A stretch of DNA of 64,000 nucleotides from Atrichornis clamosus (taxonomy: Eukaryota; Chordata; Aves; Passeriformes; Menuridae), in contig WBMZ01005369.1 of assembly GCA_013400975.1 (NCBI GenBank), positions 112,372-176,371 of the forward strand, in the 5' to 3' direction. This document shows positions 6,662-49,200 of this stretch, piece after piece (the stretch's first letter is position 1; the number at the start of each line of letters is the position of its first letter). The position numbers and the translations under genes were made by a program. The notes under the pieces are model-generated. The model had not been told where the DNA came from, did not search any database, and was given only the letters and a program-made list of their open reading frames with translations.

Positions 6662-9600
6662 TGTTCTCCAGAATCTCATTTGAGCCAAGACAGGTCCAAC
6701 ACTGAGTCTTTTCTTGATCTGCCTGTCCTGGTACAGGGCATATGCTAATCTGTTACAGAAGTGAAATCCCATAATTAGCCAAAATAATCTTTGTATTTTC
6801 TTCAGTGCATTTTTTCCAGAAAACTTCAAACTGCTGAATATCCCAGATCTGAAGAATATATCAGGCTATCCCTAATCAGATGGTAGAGTGAAGCAGAAGG
6901 GCAGGAACCTCTCCTGACAGCCCAGTTCTACATCCCTTCCAAGGTATTCACAATCAACAACCAGCCAACACAAAACACCAGGCTGGATAAGACATCTCAC
7001 CTGGCACAACATGGTACACACATACGCTCGGTGATTTTTGGCAACTTTTCAAAAACTTAGCACTGTCCTTCAGAAAATAAAGAGCTCGTGTATGTGAACA
7101 TGCAAACACACACTCCAGAAAACAAGACAAATTGTTGCAATAACTTTCTTAGCTTAGCTTATTTACCTCTCCTGACTTTCCAGAACTTCCATTTGCCTTC
7201 TCAGGTGCCTAGAGATCCTTGTTCTCCCACGCAAAGCTCATCGTCCCGGCTATTAATCTTACTTTCTCTACTAAGAACTAAAGTTTTATTCCAGATACTC
7301 ATTATCCTTATTCACTCACTCCATGAAATTTCAATCCATCTTGAAGACAGAACAGAAAACACAGACACACCCTACCTTCAAAAATAACAAGTGAAACTTC
7401 ACAAATATTTAGCAGAAGAGCCTTACAACTGTAATGAAAGACAAGCTCTTTACTGCTCCTTCTATGCTGCAGTGAGTGAGCAAAGATTAATCTGATAACT
7501 GAAACATTTTCTGGCAAAATTCCTCAGTTAAACTGCCTTTGCTCTTCTTCGTCCATAGCACAATCAAAACATTCCTCCAACACTCCTTCTTCCTCTCACT
7601 GTACAGTCAATGCAGGCAAAACTCTACTGTCCTAGATTTTCTGAAGAAAAAACAGTGTCATCTCTAAGAAATGCAGAAGTCTCATCTTGCTGATAAACTC
7701 CTCCATCCAATGGAAATGTTTATATGTCAGTGTTTACATGTTCAAGCCAAATGGCTGCTATTCCAGTGATTACAATGGCTTATTGCCTTCACTGATGACT
7801 GGGAGTTTGAGCATGCCTGAACAACACAGAAACTCACTGACATAAGTCTGATCGTACGTCTGATCAGAACATAGCAGTGCAGAATTCATATCCCACCCTT
7901 CCAACATCCAGACTGCCTCTCGGATGGAGGCTTTGCAAAGATTCAGACTCAAGTGATCTGCTCCTGTAAAGCACAGCTGAGGGAACATATGAGAGCCAAT
8001 TCAGAGAGTTATCTAGGCAGAACATTAACTTGGCCCTACCAGTCACTCAGAGAAAACCTCATCTGGGTTTGGGTCCATTTTACAAAGTGGAACAGAAATT
8101 AAGTTACAGATGTGGACTGTAATCACATTCTGTTGGGAAACTTCATACATTACTACAAAATTCACTAGGGAGGGCAAAAACAGTAATAATTTTTTTTAAA
8201 ACCCCCAACATTCAAGTAGAGTCTTTCAATGTTTTTTTTCCAAAAGTTTTTTCCTTCGGGAGGAAAAGCTTCCCTGTAATCAACAGAAAGTGAATCCTGT
8301 CTCATCTTTGCTCAGAGCTGTACCTTCACACATATAAACAACTGCAGAGCGAATGAGTTCATCATAATGTGGATATGGTTGTGTGTAAAGGATGATCTCA
8401 TTTGAGTAAGCCTAAATAGGGTGTCAACCATACAGCTCAGTCCTGCAGTGAAGACATATCCTCAGTGCTCCACTAAACCACTGAAAGGGTAGAACTCAAG
8501 GAACCACACACCCCCTCCCCAGTGTGTCTATACCTAGTCATAACTGCTATATATTACAGGAAACGTTAATTTGAGGTTGAAACAATCTGTGATGCAGACT
8601 GCTCAGACCAAAATTAATTTCACAAAACTAGACATATCATTTCAGTCTCCTGTTCCCCAAACATGAAGATACTCTGAAGATGATGTGTAGTCAGCACATT
8701 TATTTGCCTCACTAGAAGATAGCAAAGTAGGGAAGTTTCTGCACTGCTTTACGCCAGGGCTCCTGCACTATGGTACATACACATTTCAATATGTACCCAT
8801 GGCAAGCAGAGGTGACAGCAGCAGCAACTCCTCACCATCTCCAGGAGAAAGTTTTTCTTTCAGTGCCAAAGAGGCAGCCCGCAAAGATCAGCTGTTAACA
8901 AATAATGTGCTGGCACGTGCACCAGTAGATACTCTGCTGTGCTCCAAAAAAACCCCTGCTTTTCTGGATCAGCAGGGCCCAAACAAGCTGAAATAGGGAG
9001 CATAAGTTAATTAAGAAGGATAAACAGAAGTAGCCGACATGCTAGTTTTATGGTAAGATAGCAAAAGCACATGGATGGCATGAGGTTAAGGTGCAAAAGA
9101 AATCTCCAATTGAAAGCTTAAGGCCGAACTTTTAAGATTTAAAAAGACTTGTGACTCTGTTAAATTTCACCTACTTACAGAGATATTATGGCTGTGTGCT
9201 GAAATCCAAAATATTCTACAAGAATAATGATGCTGCACACACAGACAAGAAAATGGGGGACGGATGGGGAAAGGAATGCTGCACAAACTAAATTCATTAC
9301 TTCAACTTCTGAAATATAAACCAAACTAACTTAAACATTACCTCGCTCAGTGATAAAGCCTAAAATTTATCTGTGTGGAAAGTAAGTGTCTTAAACAAGA
9401 AATTCAAAAGGATCTATGGAAGTGAGATACTGCTAGCAGCATTGTTTCTTCACATTTGAAAACAGAGTACCAGACTGATGGCAGATTCCTGCATAAGCTG
9501 CATGCACTGTTTGCCCTCCACAAGGACAACCAACACTTAAAAATCTGAAAGCACTGACTGACCGGCATGGCACACCTAAGCCTGGTAATGAAAATTGTCC

Positions 9601-10799: not shown

Positions 10800-12728
10800 A
10801 ATTAAACTCTCTTTTGCTTGGCTGAATGCATTTCACCTGGACATTTAAGGATGAAAGTCTATGAAAAATGCTGCTGCTTTACCATGCCAGTAGAAGTCAG
10901 AGTTTAAAAACAAAAACAGAAGCAAGCAAGCACTCCTCCTGAAACCTAAGAGTTTCCCATTATTTCATATTCAAGAGGAGGAAAAATTAAAGACTGCTTT
11001 TGGAAAAATGCCATATTCTCTTAGCTCTATGTCAAAATGTCTTCTGTACTCCCTTTCTTTGTATTTTATTTCATGAGCTGCTTGTTGCCTGAACATTTGG
11101 GAGCCTTCTCCCACATGATGATAGGAGTGGATGGCCTTAATTAAACAGAAATTAAAGCTGCTTCCACAACTGTTGGAACCAGCAAACACAGCACTGCTTA
11201 CATCTTGTACAGAACAGCATGATGCCCAAGAAGCTAAAACTGGCAATATTTCACTCTTTTCTTGAAATCACATTTGGTATCTAAATTATAAGTGAGGAAA
11301 GACTGGTAAGGGCTCAGCAAGCCAGTATCTGGTAATTAAGAAGGGCAAATTCGCCTACTTGTGGAAAGCTTAAGGCGTTTGCTTTTAGTCCTGAGTCTTT
11401 TGCTCCTTTCAGCAGAAAGCACGAATCTAAAGAACAGAAAAGGAGTTCACAGTCAGCTTCAGATCACACACTTATTTTAAATTCTATTATTAGATTCTAT
11501 TTAATCACAACTATTAGATCACTCATTAAATCACTGCAGCAAACGGGAACAAATGGGTGTCCCTTTCATTTCATATTCAGTAATGACTGAAGTATTTTTG
11601 GAAATACTTATAAAGATATAACGGCATTATACTTCTACCATTTCTACAGTACGGATTTTAATGGTGTCTTTACATACTGAAGTGTTTTGTGCAAGCAGAA
11701 GACATATTCTGAAATCAGTGCTGAAAGTTTATTTGTATATATACCAGAAAAGCAACACACAACGAGAAAACACACTTCCAGTAAGTCAGCTATGCCACAA
11801 CTAACTAGCGCTGATGTCAAATGCAAATTTAAAATAAAGACAGAATGTTGGGATATATACACTCAGTTCAGAAAAGCTACATTATATATTTTCCAAATAT
11901 TCAGAGCTGTGTCTTCAGATCCCACCAAGAAAAAGAAAGCACATATTCGTTTCCAAAACATAGAAAAGAAACATTTTTAATGTCTTCAAAATGTATTTTC
12001 TATGGATGGTAGACTAAGATGCAGTTTCACAGCACAGGCCCTGATATTGTCTGGACAAACGATTCCAGAAAGGAACTGCTATAAGCAGCAGCAAACCTGA
12101 AACCCTTTATTCAGCCCACTCAAGGTTCAAACAAAACCACACAGAACCGTATGAACACGAAGTTTGCATGTTGCAGTGTTAGGCTACACAGATCCAAATC
12201 ATAAAGGTCTCAGAAGGGTTACTTCCACTTAGACACATGGAGAATTGTCCGTTTTCATCCGTGATCGGGAAATATGTGAAATTACAGTCCTCTCTGATAC
12301 AAGATTTTACAGTTAGAGAGCAAGACAGACGGCTGGGACACACGGATGTTACCCCAAATAAGCACCCACCCAGCACCCAGCACGCACAAGTATCTTTCCA
12401 GTAAGAAAAATCAACCCCGCTCAAGAGAGTCCGATGGCAGAAGACGGACGCTGCTGCTGCCCAAACCCTTGAGAGCTCCTGTCAGCACTGCCCGGCCTGG
12501 AACGCCGGAAGGAGACCCTCCAAAAACACGCACCCAAACTGAACGCGAAGACACGAGGTACCCGAGACCCCTCTCAGAGGTGACGGCGGGGAGGGGCTAA
12601 AGGCCCGACCAGGACAGCGGGGACAGCGCGGGGGCTCCGGAGGGGGCGCAGCCGCCCCACACCCGGGGGGAGCGGCCGTGCCCCGACGCAGGGAGGCCCC
12701 TCAGGGCGGGCCCGCGCCCACCCTCCCT

Positions 12729-12760
12729 TCCTCTCTCTCACTCTCTCTCTCTCTCTCTCT
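12729..12760. repeat. (CT)n microsatellite in the CpG island
   Basis: A near-perfect CT array interrupted by CA. It lies just inside the presumed first intron (GA repeat on the transcribed minus strand), about 60 bp downstream of the donor, and could bind GAGA-type or polypyrimidine factors. Confidence 0.9.
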
Positions 12761-12821
12761 GCCGCTGGCGGTCCCCACGGCCGCCTCGCAGGTCCCGGCC
12801 GAGCCGGAGCCCCGCACTCAC

Positions 12822-12905
12822 CTGGTCACGGCTCCATCTCGCCCTAGCCCGCCCGTGCCCGTCCCCGGCGGAGAAGGCGCCGCCCCCGCTCCCGCAGCCC
12901 GGCCG
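12822..12905 (-). other. Probable non-coding first exon with consensus splice donor (MRTFA candidate)
   Basis: On the minus strand the sequence reads CCAG|GTGAGTGC, with the exon ending at 12,822 and the intron starting at 12,821; this is a perfect donor. The 5' end is not visible. It is placed here because CCAAT boxes usually lie 60-100 bp upstream of start sites and the nearest is at 12,963-12,967. The only ATG near the exon end (12,835-12,837) reads Met-Glu-Pro-stop, so this exon cannot begin a long protein and is probably 5' UTR with a minimal upstream ORF. MRTFA is known to have untranslated 5' exons; the gene identity here is inferred from synteny alone. Confidence 0.5.
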
Positions 12906-12962
12906 CGCCACCGCCGGCCGGCGCCTCGCAACCGCGGAAGCGCCCGCCCCGCGCCGCTCCCA

Positions 12963-13131
12963 CCAATCAGAGCAAAGAGACGCGGATGAGCGGCGCGGGA
13001 CGTGACCAATGGGTTGCGACCACCTGGGGAAGCTAACAGGCGCGAGGGCCGGGCACCGTCTGACTGACGTGGCGGACAACCAATCGAAAAGCAGAGATGA
13101 GGTCATAGTGGGCGGGGCGAAGTGGGCGGGC
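12963..13131 (-). promoter_or_regulatory. CCAAT and GC-box cluster
   Basis: CCAAT motifs (plus-strand reading) occur at 12,963-12,967, 13,006-13,010 and 13,080-13,084. A TGACGTGG CRE-like element lies at 13,065-13,072. GC boxes GGGCGGGGC (13,110-13,118) and GGGCGGGC (13,124-13,131) follow. NF-Y binds CCAAT in either orientation and Sp1/KLF factors bind GC boxes. The order places GC boxes furthest upstream and CCAAT nearest the presumed start, as in many TATA-less housekeeping promoters. Confidence 0.6.
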
Positions 13132-13161
13132 TTCATCTTGGGGGGGGTGGACCGTCATCCT

Positions 13162-13187
13162 TAAAGGCGCAGCGCCGCCTTTATGGG
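13162..13187. promoter_or_regulatory. Inverted repeat overlapping a CArG-like element
   Basis: TAAAGGCG (13,162-13,169) and CGCCTTTA (13,176-13,183) form a perfect 8-bp inverted repeat with a 6-bp spacer. The right arm overlaps CCTTTATGGG (13,178-13,187), one base away from the SRF-binding CArG consensus CC(A/T)6GG. It sits about 250-300 bp upstream of the presumed start site. Function is speculative. Confidence 0.35.
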
Positions 13188-13387
13188 CGCCGCGGGGGCG
13201 CGGCGCGGCGAGGTGTGGAAGTCGTTTGGTGAACGAAGGCAGTCAAAACCGTGAGACATCCCGTTCCTGATGGCTATTCTGAGAGTTTTAGATTCAATAA
13301 CAAGTCACCTTCCTTTCTCCCATGTTTCTTCCCATCACCGTCCACCCCTAATCCTTGGGATGGGAATGGGGGGTCCTTGACAGAGGC

Positions 13388-13547: not shown

Positions 13548-13613
13548 TTTTCCACACTTTCTGAAAAAAGTTTTCCACGCTGTCTGAAAAAAGTTTTCCA
13601 CGCTGTCTGAAAA
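13548..13613. repeat. 23-bp tandem triplication
   Basis: Nearly three copies of a 23-bp unit (TTTTCCACGCTGTCTGAAAA core) start at 13,548, 13,571 and 13,594. The first differs at a few positions and the second and third are almost identical, so the last duplication is recent. It begins 6 bp beyond dispersed-repeat copy B. Confidence 0.85.
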
Positions 13614-20796: not shown

Positions 20797-21285
20797 AGAG
20801 TTTCGCAGACTGTCATTGAGAACAAGAGTCAGCTTAAGCCTTAAGTAGAATTAGAGAGGAGACAAAAGAGGATAATCAGAGGTTGTTACTTTTATTCTCT
20901 CTTTCATGTTTGAGGGATAAAATCCCACTAGCTTCAGGGCATAGAGCAACTTCAGAAAGCCCATGACTAGAAATAACTTCTTCTGTAGGCAAATTATCCT
21001 GTTCTTCTCTTGAACTTTTCTGGGAATAATCTTCTGCTGGTTTCTGTCACAGATAGCATAGTAGCCTGCAGGGGTACTTTTTTCAGTATGTGTTTTACTG
21101 CTGGGGTGTATTAGTAAAGGTATGAGCTGGAATTTCAAAGACTGTTTTCAGGCCACTTCCACTGGCAGAAAAACACTATGTGACAGATGAAGATAGAGGT
21201 CAACCGACTGACACGATTTTTCAACCACTCAGTTCTATCTCAAACAAAAGAAAAAAGATATTAAATCTGTATTTTGTAACTATGC

Positions 21286-21300
21286 TTCTTTTTTTCACAG
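21286..21300 (+). other. Relic splice acceptor of the MCHR1 pseudogene
   Basis: A pyrimidine tract (CTTCTTTTTTTCACAG) ends in AG at 21,299-21,300, immediately before the first codon similar to MCHR1. As I recall, vertebrate MCHR1 has an intron in the sequence encoding the extracellular N-terminus just before TM1, so this junction sits where exon 2 should begin. Its presence argues against a processed retrocopy. Confidence 0.6.
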
Positions 21301-22065
21301 CAACCTAGTCTTCACAGAATCTCTTAGGTTAATACTGTCCAACTTTGTATCTTGAGCATCATCTATTCCTGGACATTGTCTGCATCTCTATTGCTGTTTC
21401 TACTGTAGTGAAAAAATCCAACCTTCTCTGCTGCCACCATGTTCCAGACATCTTAATCTTCAAAATCTGTCAACATGTGGGCAATGGGGTCTGGCATGTT
21501 GAGAGACCCTATGTTTGCCTCCCCTGCTATGGATGTCAGCAGTTCTCCAGCACCTCCATTGTCACTGCTGATCCATGGACTGATGCTTAGCCACAGTTTA
21601 CCAGTCTTTTTCCTAAGATGTTGCAAGTGCCTTCCTGCTGACTTGATCACTTGCCTTCTATGGGCACAGTCTCATCAACATTACCCTGGTTTGGCTCCAT
21701 TGCAGGCTTATCCTGATGGTGCCAGAGGTTGTGACATTCACTGTCCCTACTCTGCCTGTGTCCTGTAGTGACCTTCACTCCTCACATGGTGCTACCCGCA
21801 TGCAGATAGTCTGTAAGTTTAAGTCTCTTCTGCCCCAGCAAAGTGCCCAGCTGAGGGTGAAGTGAGCCACACGATTGCTGTAAGTCTGGTCTTCTCTGTC
21901 TGCTGGGCATGGTATGACTTGCTGCCATGGATACCTACACCCTCTGGTCCTCCTCTGCTCTTGCACCTGAAATGTGCACTTCATCCTGGGCTGTGCACAG
22001 AGCTGGCTTGTCCCTCTCTGTACTTGGTGAGTCGTGAGAGCTGTCACTGGGTCTCTCTGTCAGGT
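21301..22065 (+). pseudogene. MCHR1: MCHR1 pseudogene (melanin-concentrating hormone receptor 1), exon 2 relic
   Basis: An intact MCHR1 is a ~350-residue class A G-protein-coupled receptor for melanin-concentrating hormone. Here similarity is spread over three frames in the correct order. ISxVN before TM1 is interrupted by a TAG at 21,325-21,327 in place of a Tyr codon. The end of TM1 and first loop follow (VVKKSNLLCCHHVPDI, about 21,405-21,452; family VVKKSKLHWCNNVPDI). Then come GNGVWH before TM3 (21,481-21,498), LATV after the lost DRY motif (about 21,587-21,598), TM4 (LITCLLWAQS), the second loop (GCDIH), a third-loop region with a TGA at 21,863-21,865, and TM6 (IAVSLVFSVCWAWYD, from about 21,871). 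TM2 is deleted between VPDI and GNGVWH, TM5 is mostly missing, the TM6 CWxP proline is lost, and NPxxY in TM7 is unrecognisable. At least five frame changes are needed. Position and plus orientation between the MRTFA-like promoter and SLC25A17 match mammalian gene order, supporting a unitary pseudogene. The end coordinate is approximate. Confidence 0.88.
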
Positions 22066-25000
22066 CAGTGGCCCAGGATTGGCAGGGCCTGACTGCGCAT
22101 TTGCCAAGAGGCAGATAGCAAGCCAAAGATTAAAAGTATTTGACATAGAGGGGATATAAAGGGACCTAAAAAGGTGCCTGGAGTCCAGAAAGACTTCAAA
22201 AGGATGTTTGATTTCCCCTGCTGATTCCATGCTTTAAAATGTTTAAACAAATCCAATGTATAATTTGGTCGAATGACAAGTATATATATAGAAGAGAATG
22301 GTGATAATAATTCACAAAACTTTGGAGAATATAAATGTCAGGGAAGGAGGAGTGGTTATGGTGGTACTAGTGTGATAGCCAGGAGGACCCAAGTGAATTT
22401 GAGAAAAGGAAAATTTTGGCTCAGTACAAGGAACAAAAATATAAACTAAATAAAGTGACCTAAAATAAGTAACTGTACAAAGCCTAAGAAACCAAACAAA
22501 ACCTTTCTCCAAGCAGTTATTTTGGCAGAGGAAAAGTACCAGATACTACATTGAGTTCTTTGCAAGCTTCACTCTTGTTGTGGGTTTTTGTATGGAAGCC
22601 ACTCAAAAGGTTATGGTGATGGTGGCTGCCTAAAATGGAAAGAGCCAACAATAATCTCTGTTTGATTTGAACAATCCCCAAAAGGGAGAGGATGAAATCC
22701 CTCAGAAGCAGTAAATTCAAACTGAGCAGAAACCTGGCACGTAGAGTAAATGACGCATACAGTGAATGGCACAATCTTCTGTTGGGCACTGCACATACAG
22801 GACAGACACATCATGATTTTCCGTGTCTAAAATAAAAAGCCTATAAAAAGTACTTCCCATTATGGAGACAAATACATTTGACAAGAATGATTTGTCTTCT
22901 TATTACAGAATTGATGCTTTTTTCCTCCATTTTTTCCCTTCTTTCCCTTGTGAGCTTTTAAGTACAGAGAAAAAAAAAAGGTGTTTGATCTGGGTAAGAG
23001 TCTGGTATAGATGAGGGGTCTGAAACTGGGACAATATCATTCCTTTTCACACTGACAGTGCTCTCTCTTCACTGGAGTGTCCCTGGGGTTTACAGGATGT
23101 GATAAAGCCTGTTCAGTCCAAGTGGAGGAAATGTTAAAACTTCAGACAAAAATAGACATAGTCTTTAAATTTAGGCACTGTATTAAAAAGTTGTAGCAGG
23201 AGCTAAACCAAATGTTTAAAGACGTGGAAATTTAAAGTCAGGTTAATGGTCAAAACCAGAAATCAAAACTGATCTTCCCAGACAGACTTTTTCTATTTTT
23301 TGATGAAGGTTTTTTTAAAATGAAGGCTAGAAATATCTGTATGCTGATGGCTGTGCTTTGATAGATGAATGGTAAAACAAGGCTGGTCACTAGATCAGTG
23401 GGACAGATGCTGCAAAGGAGAGCATCCACTTCAGCTTTATGGAGCACTGACTCCTACGCCAGCAGGGAGGCAAAGAACTGCTGCACCATGTTCATAGTCC
23501 ATTAACTGCTGGCATTTTCAGTGCATACCAAACCCCAGATCAAATAACTCTGCTGTTAGATCACACTAAAGTGCTCCACTGCTTATTTCTCTCCATCACA
23601 TCCCAGTTACCAGGCTGCAGGGGCATCAGTGAAAGCGGCATGTGGAAGCTTTAAACTACATAAACTTTGGTTCTTGAAACAAACAAACGTGCAATGAATG
23701 AGCACGCGTTGTTCCCTTGTTCTGTGTTTATGCTTTGGTGAAGAAGGCCTAGAGTTCCTGCTGGAAAGTGGGATGACAAGTTTAAAAGGACATGGGCACA
23801 GTGCCGGGCAGCAAGTCCCCGCATCACCCCACTGTGCCTGGCCCCGGCAGAGGCACTGCCCTGCTCCTTCCTGCTGCCCTGGTTCCTGAGACTCAGGCAT
23901 CCAGCTCTGTACTCGCCTCTCTGCTGGCTTCTGGCCCGGGATGGCTAACGGTTGCTGGTAGGAAGGAGGCAGGAGATAGGAATGTGCTGCCATCATGGCA
24001 CTCTCCATTCCACTCAATGTTTTTGAGCTTTTGGGTGTTTTGATTCAAGGGAAGCACTCTCCAGATGTTTTCATTCTCGTGTATTTGAGATGTGATTCTC
24101 TGCCAAGTGATGTGCCTTTTTTTATCTGGGAAAATCCTTGGTGTGTTTTACGAGACGGATGTCCGAGGCCCAGGAACTACCAGCACGTACAAATGTCTGC
24201 AGTCTTTCCTCAGACAAAGCCCACGGGCCGGGTGCTTGCCATCCCACCGAGTTAGCAGAAATCAGTGCTCCAAGCGGCGCCTGGGTGTTTGCAGGAGAGG
24301 CTCCCCGGCTGGCCCCGGCCAGAGCCCGCAGCCCGTCCCAGCCCCGGGCGGCGAGGGAGACGTGCCGGCAGCGCTCTGCTCTTTCTCTGCTCGGCACAGC
24401 AGCCCCGGGTGACAGCACGGCTGATATGCTGGAGAAGGCTCTGGACTGCTTCAGCTGGCGTAGCGGTGGGGAGTGAACCGCATTGACCCCTCAGATGGTA
24501 AAGTACACAGAGGCAGGTTAAATCTTCTCTCTTATTTTGCCACTGAGTCTTGCTGTGCTGTCCCTCCCAAGCCCCATCCTTCCCTCTTTTCAGATCCTGT
24601 TTATTATCCTTTTCTCCCCAGGTATCTACCACTCATTTTACTCTTATAGATCCTGATTTTTGTTTTAACCTTTTTACCCACTCTACTAACATACACCCAG
24701 ATCCCACACTTGAACACAAATACGGGAACCCCTGAACATACCAGTGACAGTGTCTCCCCAACGTTATTATTATTACTAGTATAATAGCATATAATAATTA
24801 CAGTAATATATGAAACAGGTAAAATAATGCCAGTAACATACTAGTATCCTACAGCTGGGAAGAGCAATTCCCAGGAATGCTCTGTTCCATTCCAGGATAG
24901 CACATGCTTTGGGGACATAGCCTGCTTGTGCCGAGGGAAATGTACGAAGCAAGACAGCATTGCTCTTTGTTTTTATTTAAAGGCCTATAATCTCAACAGG

Positions 25001-29899: not shown

Positions 29900-30485
29900 G
29901 ATAGGGTAGCCAGCAGGACCAGGGCAGTGATTGTCCCCCTGTACTCAACACTGGTGAGGCTACATCTTGAATCTTGTATTCAGTTTTGGGCCCCTCACTA
30001 CAAGAAGGACATTGGGGTGCTGGAGCATGTCCAGAGAAGGGCAACAGAGCTGGCAGAGGGTCTGGAACACAAATCTTATGAGGAGCAGCTGAGGAAGCTG
30101 AGGTTGTTTAGCTTGGAGGAAAGGAGGCTGAGGGGAGACCTTATCACTCTCTAAAATACCTGACAGAAGATTGTAGCCAGGTGGGGGTCAGCCTCTTCCC
30201 CCCGGTAACAAGAAACAGGACAAGTGGAAAGGGCCCCAAGTTGTGCCAGGGGAGGTTTTGATTTGGGTATTCATAAATATTTCTTCACCAAAATGGTTGT
30301 CTAGCAGTGGAACAGGCAGTCCAGGGAAGTGGTGGAATCACCACACCTGGAGGTATGTAAAAGACATGTAGATGTGGCACTTAAGGACAGGGTTTAGTGG
30401 TGGTCTTGGCAGTGCTGGGTTAACAATTGGACTCGATAATCTAAAGGTCTTTTCCAACATAAATGATTCTATGATTCCATGATTT
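29900..30485 (+). mobile_element. CR1 LINE fragment, 5'-truncated, with end of ORF2
   Basis: The first part encodes the C-terminal end of the CR1 reverse-transcriptase ORF2 (for example [18 protein letters not shown] and [13 protein letters not shown], 29,980-30,090). It is followed by the diverged 3' region and a terminal ATGATTCTATGATTCCATGA tail. The open frame ends at a TAA in CTCTCTAAAATACC (about 30,154), and indels follow. CR1 elements move by target-primed reverse transcription and are usually 5' truncated like this copy. It is not capable of movement. Confidence 0.95.
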
Positions 30486-31631: not shown

Positions 31632-32001
31632 CCTGGAGAAAAAAAAGGCTCTGGGGAAACCTTACTGCAGCCTTTAAGTACTTGAAGTGAGCCTTGAAGT
31701 AAAATGAGGACACACTTTATATCAGGGTCTGTTGCAATAGAACAAGGGATAAACTGAAGGAGAATCAATATAGATTAGCTATAAGGAAGAAGGTTTTTTA
31801 TAATTAGGGTTGTGAAACACTGAAACAGATTGCCCAGAGAGGTGGCAGATGCCCGATCCCTGGAAACATTCAAGGTCACGCTGGACAGGGATCTGAGCAA
31901 ACTGGTTTAGTTGAAGATGTCCCTGCTCATTGCAGTGAGGTTGGACTAGATGGTCTTTAAAGGTCCCTTCCAACACAAACTGTTCTATGATTCTATGATT
32001 T
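31632..32001 (+). mobile_element. CR1 LINE 3' fragment
   Basis: Typical CR1 3' region: AAGGCTCTGGGGAAACC, then a middle part with TATAAGGAAGAAGG, GATTGCCCAGAGAGGTGG and TCCCTGGAAACATTCAAG, then TAGATGGTCTTTAAAGGTCC and a TTCTATGATTCTATGATT tail ending near 32,001. It is 5' truncated and non-coding. It lies 1.15 kb from the previous CR1 copy in the same orientation, but the two look like different subfamilies. Confidence 0.95.
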
Positions 32002-46079: not shown

Positions 46080-46227
46080 TCAATGTCTGCGTGGGTGCTT
46101 TAAGCCCATGACTGTGAAGGTTGCAGCAGTCAGTTTCTCATATACCAGAAACATAAGAGCAGCAGTAAGGACTGTCTGCAGGAGCTTTGCTTCAAGGCCT
46201 TTGTAGAGTCCCACTAATCCAAAACGC
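46080..46227 (-). CDS. SLC25A17: SLC25A17 exon 9 (last coding exon, stop codon)
   Basis: Follows an acceptor CTTAG|G at 46,228-46,229 and encodes residues 260-307: [18 protein letters not shown], then [13 protein letters not shown], ending in GLKHPRRH and TGA at 46,080-46,082. It covers the end of carrier repeat 3 and the sixth membrane helix. The C-terminal tail differs slightly from the human GLKRAHQH-type ending. Confidence 0.96.
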
Positions 46228-49200
46228 CTAAGGAGGAGGAAAAAAACCAAACGAGAAACAAATATTAATAGCTTTCCTTAAGTAAATCAGTACACTACAA
46301 AGAAGAATTAATTATCAGTTAGTGACAACTGTAGGAATCTTAAACCCATTCTCGATCTCGAGTGCCAGCTATATGTAATAATATTTTAAAGAAAATTCTG
46401 CAGAAATTTAAGGTCTTTTGTGCAAGAAACCTGTTTCTTTTCAAGATGAGAGGTGAAATGAATTGGCATCCCTATGTATCCTTCATGCCACTTACTGTAC
46501 AGACATTTAGGAGAATTTGGGTTTGTGGACTTATTCTGCAATATATTACAAAAACCAGGTTGACCCAGAGGTCAAGTTTAAGGGAGACAAAAAGAAACTA
46601 AATTCAGGTCCAGCAACATTTCCAACATATTAGTAATACTCAAGTCTTCTATATCATAGTAGGAGAAAAAAATGGGAAAGCTCACCTCACTCTCTGTTGA
46701 AGAAGGTAAAGAACATTTCTAAGACTGCCCAGTGTTCGGTTCTCTGGGTTCAACCTGTGGCGTCCAAACTGAAAAGAAGAGTATTTTGTTGTACTATTTG
46801 CCCACAGTGCTTGGCAGAGAACGCAACACATGCATGAAATCTGGAGAGCCCATCTTAAACCTCTTTAAACAATCTCCATGCTATATGGCCATCAGCAGAG
46901 AACTGAGGCCAAAGCTCACACAGCAAGCACAAAAATCATATAAACGACAGTAATTTGTTTGGGTTTTAAGATGGATTCTAACGAAGGCCATATTTCCTCT
47001 CTTTTGGTTGCTCTGGAGGAAGCAGTTTTCAAGACCTCAAAAGCATAATTTGCACACTCCTAGTAGGGATATGACATTCAAAGCAAGTTCTTTCTAGCTT
47101 GCTCAGCTTTCACTTCACAAAGATTCAAACCCTCACGCATCTGCAAACCATTACTACATTGAGATTGCATAGTTGAACACAAAATTTATCTGCCCAGCAA
47201 TGGTCTTGGAACAACACGCTTACATGTGAATTGCTGTGGAAGAATTCAAAATTGTTTCATTCACCTACCTGGCCTAAATAATATTTCTCTTTTACTCACT
47301 TCACTTTATCCCCAAGCTGGTTGTCAGTAGGCATGATAGCTGCTGCTGTAGTTTTATGTCTCAAGAGTTAAACTTGCAATTTCAGCAATTCCTTTTCTAG
47401 CATTCAATGATACTTTTAACTGATACAGGTCAACAGTACTGTCAGCAAGCTGTAACTATGAATTATTAACGTACAAGAGTTGGCACATTGGTATTTGTAA
47501 CAGCACAGCCTAATAGCTTTTGAAGCCTGTATTAAGTCTCTGTGCTAAGAAAGGTAAATTTGAGCAACTGCACGTGGATGAGTTTTCCCAGAACTTGCTC
47601 AGGCAACTGCTACTGCTTAGGTGTAAGAAATTACCATTGACAGTAGGTAAAGTATGCCAGCTGATTTATGCACTTCAGAAATTTTAAGAAAATGATACAA
47701 GTCCCTTTACTATGTGTCTTAACAGCTTGGATGGAAACAGCAGCAACAGAATGCTAGTGGAAATCTCCTTTTATTGGTAAATACGTGCTCAAAATCCACA
47801 ATCTTCTCATCAGCAACTACTCATTTGATATTGATAAATCAATGTTAACAATTATTGTCAAAAGACTCAGACACACCCCTCAAAAAATTGCTAACTAGCT
47901 TGCAAGTTACAGTATCATTCACTGCCCAGGTTACTCATAGGCTTCCACACTACACCACCATAAGGTGCTTCATTCTCCTCTTTTTTCCACCACTGGACAA
48001 TTTTTGTACTGCAAACAAAGGTTCATCGAGAGAGAAAAAAACCATTAATTTCTCACTAGGATGTTAACACTTTAGTGTTTACTGCAGATGTCCCAAATGA
48101 ACTAGCATTCTCTCTGACAGGGAAAAGAGACTATAGTTTTAAAGATAACTTTTTCATCTGGGATCACTAAAAACATTGACAGAATTGCTGTCTCTCCAGA
48201 GGCAAATGTATCTGCTCTCTACTGACACACAGGCTGAAGAACAGTTTCACTGCATAATAAGTAACACCAGTGTCACATATTTCTAATGACTGAAAAGAAT
48301 ACAGACATACCAAATGGGAAGGCTGGAAGCTGCTACCACTGTCAGTTACATAGGATAACTGTTGATTATATGGAAGCAAGAAGAATGCTGTGCCAAAGAG
48401 TTGAAAGCAAAGGTGTAGAGACTATTAGAAAGAACCCTAGTAACTTTCAAACAAGAATAAGTTTCTAAAGGTTTAAGGCTGAAAAGAAAAAAGAAAAAAA
48501 AGTCCTGTACTACTACTTTGATGACAGAATTTAGTTATGATGTGTAAATTTATATGAATTATATTGAGCTTGTATTAGTTTGTGTGCAAATCTGCTAAAA
48601 TTGTTTCCAAAAAAATCCTGCAACTATATAAAGTATATGTAATGCAGATTGTTAATCTGAAAATACTAAACCTTTATTCATAACTTTTTTTTTTAATGTC
48701 ACTTAGTGTGAGTGACAAGAACTTTATCAAGTAGAACAATGCCAGCTTTAGATTAGAAGACACATCACAAAGCAGAGCAAGTCCGAACTGGACAGCACAG
48801 GTATCACAGATGCATACTTCTGCTGTCCTCTACAGTTGTGTTCAGGGTTCCTGGCTATCCTTTCATAGAGCAAAGGGACTCCAGTCACTGCCAGTGACTG
48901 CAGAACTAGGGACGTGGTCCTTGTGTTCCCCGCCATCCCAGGGAGAGGATGGACTGGCACTGAGAAGTATCATATAGGCCACTTTATTTCACAGTGGGCC
49001 ACTGTGAGGAAAATCCCCCCTCCCCACCAGGACACCAATGGTTCGCGGTGCTCCAGCAGGAAGACAACTCATCACTGTTCAGGGAAGCCAGCAGGGAACT
49101 GCCTGACTGCAGCTGAGGTGAGCAGGAAGCAGCAGCTGGGCAGTGCACCAAGCTGGCAGCACAACTTACCAGAGCTGCCCATTTGGTGGGTTTTGGTTTT

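Follow-up and report, generated by a model that had tools for sequence, protein, structure and literature searches.

A decayed MCHR1 gene at its ancestral locus in the genome of Atrichornis clamosus

In the present study, we analysed a 64-kb stretch of the Atrichornis clamosus genome (C3382:112372-176371, hereafter the window), in which positions 21301-22122 on the + strand hold the main exon of a decayed MCHR1 gene, from TM1 to the C-terminal tail. The right-hand neighbour of this relic is SLC25A17, for which tblastn with the human sequence returned eight matched pieces at 46083..59753 on the - strand; these covered residues 19-307 and carried no stop, and residues 1-18 were not found in the window. 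To the left of the window, ten matched pieces of MRTFA coding exons were located at C3382:33,850-45,808 (- strand), the stretches of C3382 examined for MRTFA being 20,001-70,000. MRTFA (-), the relic (+) and SLC25A17 (-) therefore lie on one contig as in human, where we take the strands of the three genes to be the same. The earlier note had read the order MRTFA, MCHR1, SLC25A17 and its orientation at this place; order and orientation held on the one contig, but MRTFA coding exons were absent from the window and from the 10 kb to its left. An MRTFA match at E 0.026 in a CpG-rich stretch of the window was rejected as low-complexity. According to the part of a published account available to us, human MCHR1 consists of two exons and is flanked by MKL1 (now MRTFA) and SLC25A17 (PMC3102661); both neighbours are common to the human gene and the relic. 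These results supported the conclusion that the relic sits at the ancestral MCHR1 locus.

Several other features were recorded in the same interval. A CpG island at 12251..13250 (G+C 0.61-0.75, CpG observed/expected 0.73-1.04) may represent the MRTFA promoter, and a tandem repeat adjoins it at 13548-13613 (23-base unit, 2.9 copies, 95% matches). A weak CpG-rich stretch at 24001-24500 (G+C 0.57, CpG observed/expected 0.64) lies 2 kb to the right of the relic, and no gene was recognised there. Judged by what we take to be the CR1 terminal motif, two CR1-like terminal repeat units were found at 30466-30481 and 31982-31997 (two matches against 0.08 expected), which presumably fit a bird or another sauropsid. 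The 13-46 kb interval holds 18 open reading frames of 120 aa or longer; ten of them were compared with Pfam and gave no receptor, one frame having two matches below the cut-off, and an Rfam search of the window gave nothing at the gathering threshold.

To establish the identity of the relic, three stop-free frames on the + strand were compared, without any guide, with 177,635 distinct PDB sequences, and human MCHR1 was the best match of each. The frame at 21333-21587 reached E 4.1e-5, and those at 21823-22089 and 21457-21765 reached E 0.42 and E 0.54, which are not significant by themselves. The PDB case for MCHR1 lies in the order and agreement of the three frames. The six peptides listed in the earlier note were likewise all present, in order, on the + strand. 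That note had proposed tblastn with mammalian MCHR1 as a check; human MCHR1, a query whose residues 1-336 match PDB 8wss (chain R), found the relic in the 64-kb window at E 1.6e-10, and the MCHR2 and SSTR1 queries gave no match at the relic in the same search. The extent given earlier, 21301..22065, was correct at its start and too short at its end, since the alignment reaches 22122.

A frameshift-tolerant alignment was then used to measure the strength of the match. Under strict costs, human MCHR1 scored 176 at the relic, compared with 55 at the highest-scoring site outside it (both strands of the 64 kb) and a maximum of 53 in 200 dinucleotide shuffles of the relic region. At the relic itself, MCHR2 scored 35, SSTR1 47 and reversed MCHR1 44. 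Under the loosest costs, the corresponding scores were 257 for MCHR1, 70 for MCHR2, 74 for SSTR1 and 81 for reversed MCHR1, and 100 shuffles reached a maximum of 92. The earlier reading of this segment as MCHR1 in decay was thus borne out by the tblastn E value, the gap between 176 here and 55 elsewhere, and the shuffle limit. When the frames were joined into a read-through with human MCHR1 as guide, the match to MCHR1 had an E value of 2.2e-26, and HCAR2 followed as the next family with E 0.085. This weak HCAR2 match is the point in favour of a descent from another receptor (MCHR2, a somatostatin receptor or HCAR2), or of a chance likeness. We give such readings almost no credence: MCHR2 and SSTR1, at 35-74, did not rise above reversed MCHR1 (44-81), MCHR1 itself reached 176-257, and the shuffles stayed at or below 53 and 92. 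The score gap to MCHR1 refutes both the other-receptor and the chance reading, and it settles the earlier question of a closer likeness to some other GPCR, MCHR2 and SSTR1 being at background and MCHR1 far above. The PDB search, the tblastn search and the frameshift-tolerant scores indicated in common that the relic is nearer MCHR1 than MCHR2 or the somatostatin receptors. The Pfam 7tm_1 profile was blind to the read-through and to two of its frames, for which no Pfam family was found at E<=1; this counts against the identification.

The relic can be aligned with human MCHR1 (PDB 8wss, chain R) from ahead of TM1 to the C-terminal tail with 43-48% identical residues; unlike the human gene, it is untranslatable. 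Under strict costs, 96 of the 222 aligned residues were identical (43%), with seven frameshifts, one stop and 46 codons missing, and under the loosest costs these values were 122 of 260, with 15 frameshifts, five stops and 56 missing codons. TM2 and TM5 are largely gone. In the loose-cost alignments only, outside the strict-cost path, a TGA at 21581..21583 on the + strand takes the place of the DRY arginine codon, so that the relic reads S-M-D-stop-C-L-A-T-V where human MCHR1 has A-I-D-R-Y-L-A-T-V. The open frame, seven helices and DRY motif expected of a functional MCHR1 are therefore not present in the relic. Since these lesions are known from the assembly alone, we considered that the gene might be functional and the lesions artefacts of sequencing or assembly. 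This is very improbable, because an identity of 43% (96/222) together with 46 missing codons goes beyond base errors, as does the loss of half the residues that human MCHR1 has in common with the paralogue described below. Moreover, no stop interrupts the eight pieces of SLC25A17, which lie at distances of at least 24 kb, and this makes poor sequence quality unlikely.

The loss of shared residues also bears on constraint and age. Of the residues common to human MCHR1 and the paralogue, the relic kept 46/91, 52/84 and 51/81 under the three cost sets; half of them being gone, we concluded that constraint had been lost. The CpG observed/expected ratio of the relic is 0.08, a value that does not set it apart, because 17 of 78 windows in the 13.5-46 kb interval were equally low. 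In simulated decay, a residue retention of 51-63% corresponded to about 0.25-0.4 substitutions per site. The avian substitution rate is near 2e-9 per site and year, and the decay would thus have gone on for some 100 million years or longer; the rate, the starting codons and the alignment are uncertain, so we say only that the relic looks old. It is plausible that the gene was lost early in the history of birds.

The rest of the genome was searched for related receptors. The assembly comprises 1,013,637,577 bases in 11,269 contigs, and the PF00001 profile search listed 150 matches, with 147 of 464 candidates scored and 317 unscored; the 147 distinct places were compared with human MCHR1. One locus, L051 (C2597:101163-102527), was an intact-looking receptor of MCHR1-like type that shares 61% identity with human MCHR1 (180/294 aa, 397 bits) and 40% with MCHR2, and was the sole MCHR among the 150 matches listed. 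The next six among the matches listed were SSTR1-like or other receptors with 31-35% identity and 141-176 bits against human MCHR1. The main exon of L051 is open over about 349 codons and has an acceptor (L051 217-1272). A putative first exon of about 19 codons with a donor was read by eye upstream of it (L109, about 6864-6921), giving a two-exon gene at about 98.0-102.4 kb of C2597. Open reading frames were listed around L051, and no neighbour gene was identified among them. In chicken, a receptor named MCHR4, with 367 aa and 58% to human MCHR1, was reportedly described by Cui et al. in 2017, and L051 probably corresponds to it. In keeping with an MCHR4-type receptor, it is MCHR1-like, with a putative short first exon and an open main exon. 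L051 differs from the relic in lying on a separate contig and in its open frame, the relic being nearer human MCHR1. In the same list, L107 (C7925:154093-154746, 142.8 bits) was the only one of the 150 rhodopsin-family matches listed to bear a stop, a single internal TAG, and is possibly a receptor pseudogene or an error.

This search answered the earlier question of an intact MCHR2/MCHR4-type receptor elsewhere, L051 being an MCHR1-like paralogue and a candidate to serve MCH; it is likely the remaining MCH receptor of this genome. The same search bears on whether a functional MCHR1 persists at some other place or is hidden in an assembly gap, in which case the relic would not be unitary. The 11,269 contigs and the scoring of 147 of the 464 PF00001 candidates leave room for such a copy, but we regard it as unlikely, for L051 surfaced among the scored matches (neighbours at 184-189 bits), where an intact MCHR1 should score alike, and the relic occupies the ancestral place. 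Judged by the 147 places compared, there is probably no other MCHR1 in the genome.

We further compared the relic with L051 and human MCHR1, since the relic might instead be a dead duplicate or retrocopy of L051 that came to lie here by accident. As a close MCHR1 relative in the same genome, L051 aligned well to the relic, scoring 130, 156 and 197 under the three cost sets; human MCHR1 outscored it in all three, with 176, 208 and 257. When the count was confined to columns that both guides place alike and in which human MCHR1 and L051 carry different residues, the relic agreed with human MCHR1 at 19, 18 and 15 columns, with L051 at 7, 5 and 5, and with neither at 18, 16 and 16. The excess toward human MCHR1 gave one-sided p values of 0.014, 0.005 and 0.021. 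Counts from a single guide lean to that guide: the human-guided differing columns divided 36:7, 44:8 and 43:8 between human MCHR1 and L051, and the L051-guided columns, the result most favourable to a copy of L051, divided 22:21, 19:25 and 18:25. We therefore relied upon the shared columns. With one human sequence and one paralogue compared, the relic is nearer human MCHR1 than L051 by the scores and the shared columns, not by the L051-guided count. Taken with the MCHR1 gene order and a retained splice-acceptor-like site, these results make an origin from L051 quite unlikely.

The acceptor-like site, a pyrimidine tract followed by CAG at 21281..21300 on the + strand, is one of 20 such sites on that strand of the window. 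We interpret it as what remains of the 3' splice site that closed the N-terminal intron. It lies 30 nt ahead of the Asn codon before TM1, and the acceptor of L051 lies 26 nt ahead of the same residue. Its closeness to the intron position of the paralogue suggested that the relic is an unprocessed gene and argues against a retrocopy. The ancestral place together with this retained site does not fit a processed pseudogene, intronless and in a new place.

Based on these results, the relic is very probably a unitary MCHR1 pseudogene at its ancestral place, which decayed without constraint, with MCH signalling then probably running through L051. The relic lies at the ancestral place by gene order and appears unprocessed by its acceptor-like site, and its unitary status is well supported because of these two observations and its greater closeness to human MCHR1 than to L051. 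The earlier description as unitary probably holds on these grounds, the absence of a second copy applying to the 150 PF00001 matches listed. As a course of events, we propose that MCHR1 function would have been lost in place between MRTFA and SLC25A17. The gene would thereafter have decayed freely through frameshifts, stops and deletions, and MCH signalling was probably taken on by L051, the MCHR4-type paralogue on another contig. The takeover by L051 is thus a predicted step, and the loss may well be old and common to other birds.

MCHR1 is a brain receptor for melanin-concentrating hormone, and MCH stimulates feeding in mammals. In the available portion of a review, MCH injection is stated to leave the food intake of neonatal chicks unchanged (PMC5089991). 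We tentatively suggest, as a possibility somewhat short of an even chance, that the loss of MCHR1 dates from around the origin of living birds or earlier, that the MCHR4-type receptor, absent in mammals, took over MCH signalling, that this swap underlies the missing feeding response of chicks, and that the chicken "MCHR1" is the paralogue. An effect of MCHR1 loss on feeding would follow from this proposal. Two chicken papers, in the parts available, treat "MCHR1" as an active gene and read it by its mammalian function (PMC7376702, PMC8847365), a usage that weighs against the proposed loss; we take their gene to be the MCHR4-type paralogue. If the loss is bird-wide, these readings concern a different receptor, and bird-mammal comparisons of MCH circuits or drugs need correcting.

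Previous studies give this loss a context. Among the titles and abstract openings listed, there was no report of an avian MCHR1 pseudogene; the loss may already be in print. "MCHR1" is not mentioned in the main text of Lovell et al. 2014, a study of genes absent from birds (PMC4290089). In the accessible sections of a review of the MCH system, a gene-related peptide is the single loss marked for birds, and the sauropsid system is called strongly conserved (PMC6901935). In Xenopus tropicalis, MCHR1 and MCHR2 are each present twice, according to the part of the source available (PMC2709155), and the available part of a receptor survey distinguishes MCHR1-like subtypes, one with five sauropsids, unnamed there (PMC6504862). 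The accessible sections of the same review also state that Glires lost MCHR2 (PMC6901935), which likewise leaves a clade with one MCH receptor paralogue gone and another kept, except that Glires kept MCHR1 and here MCHR1 is the lost one. The relic adds a further case to a type of event already known, and its wider interest hinges on whether other birds share it. With one dead gene and one intact-looking paralogue, this genome provides a direct test case.
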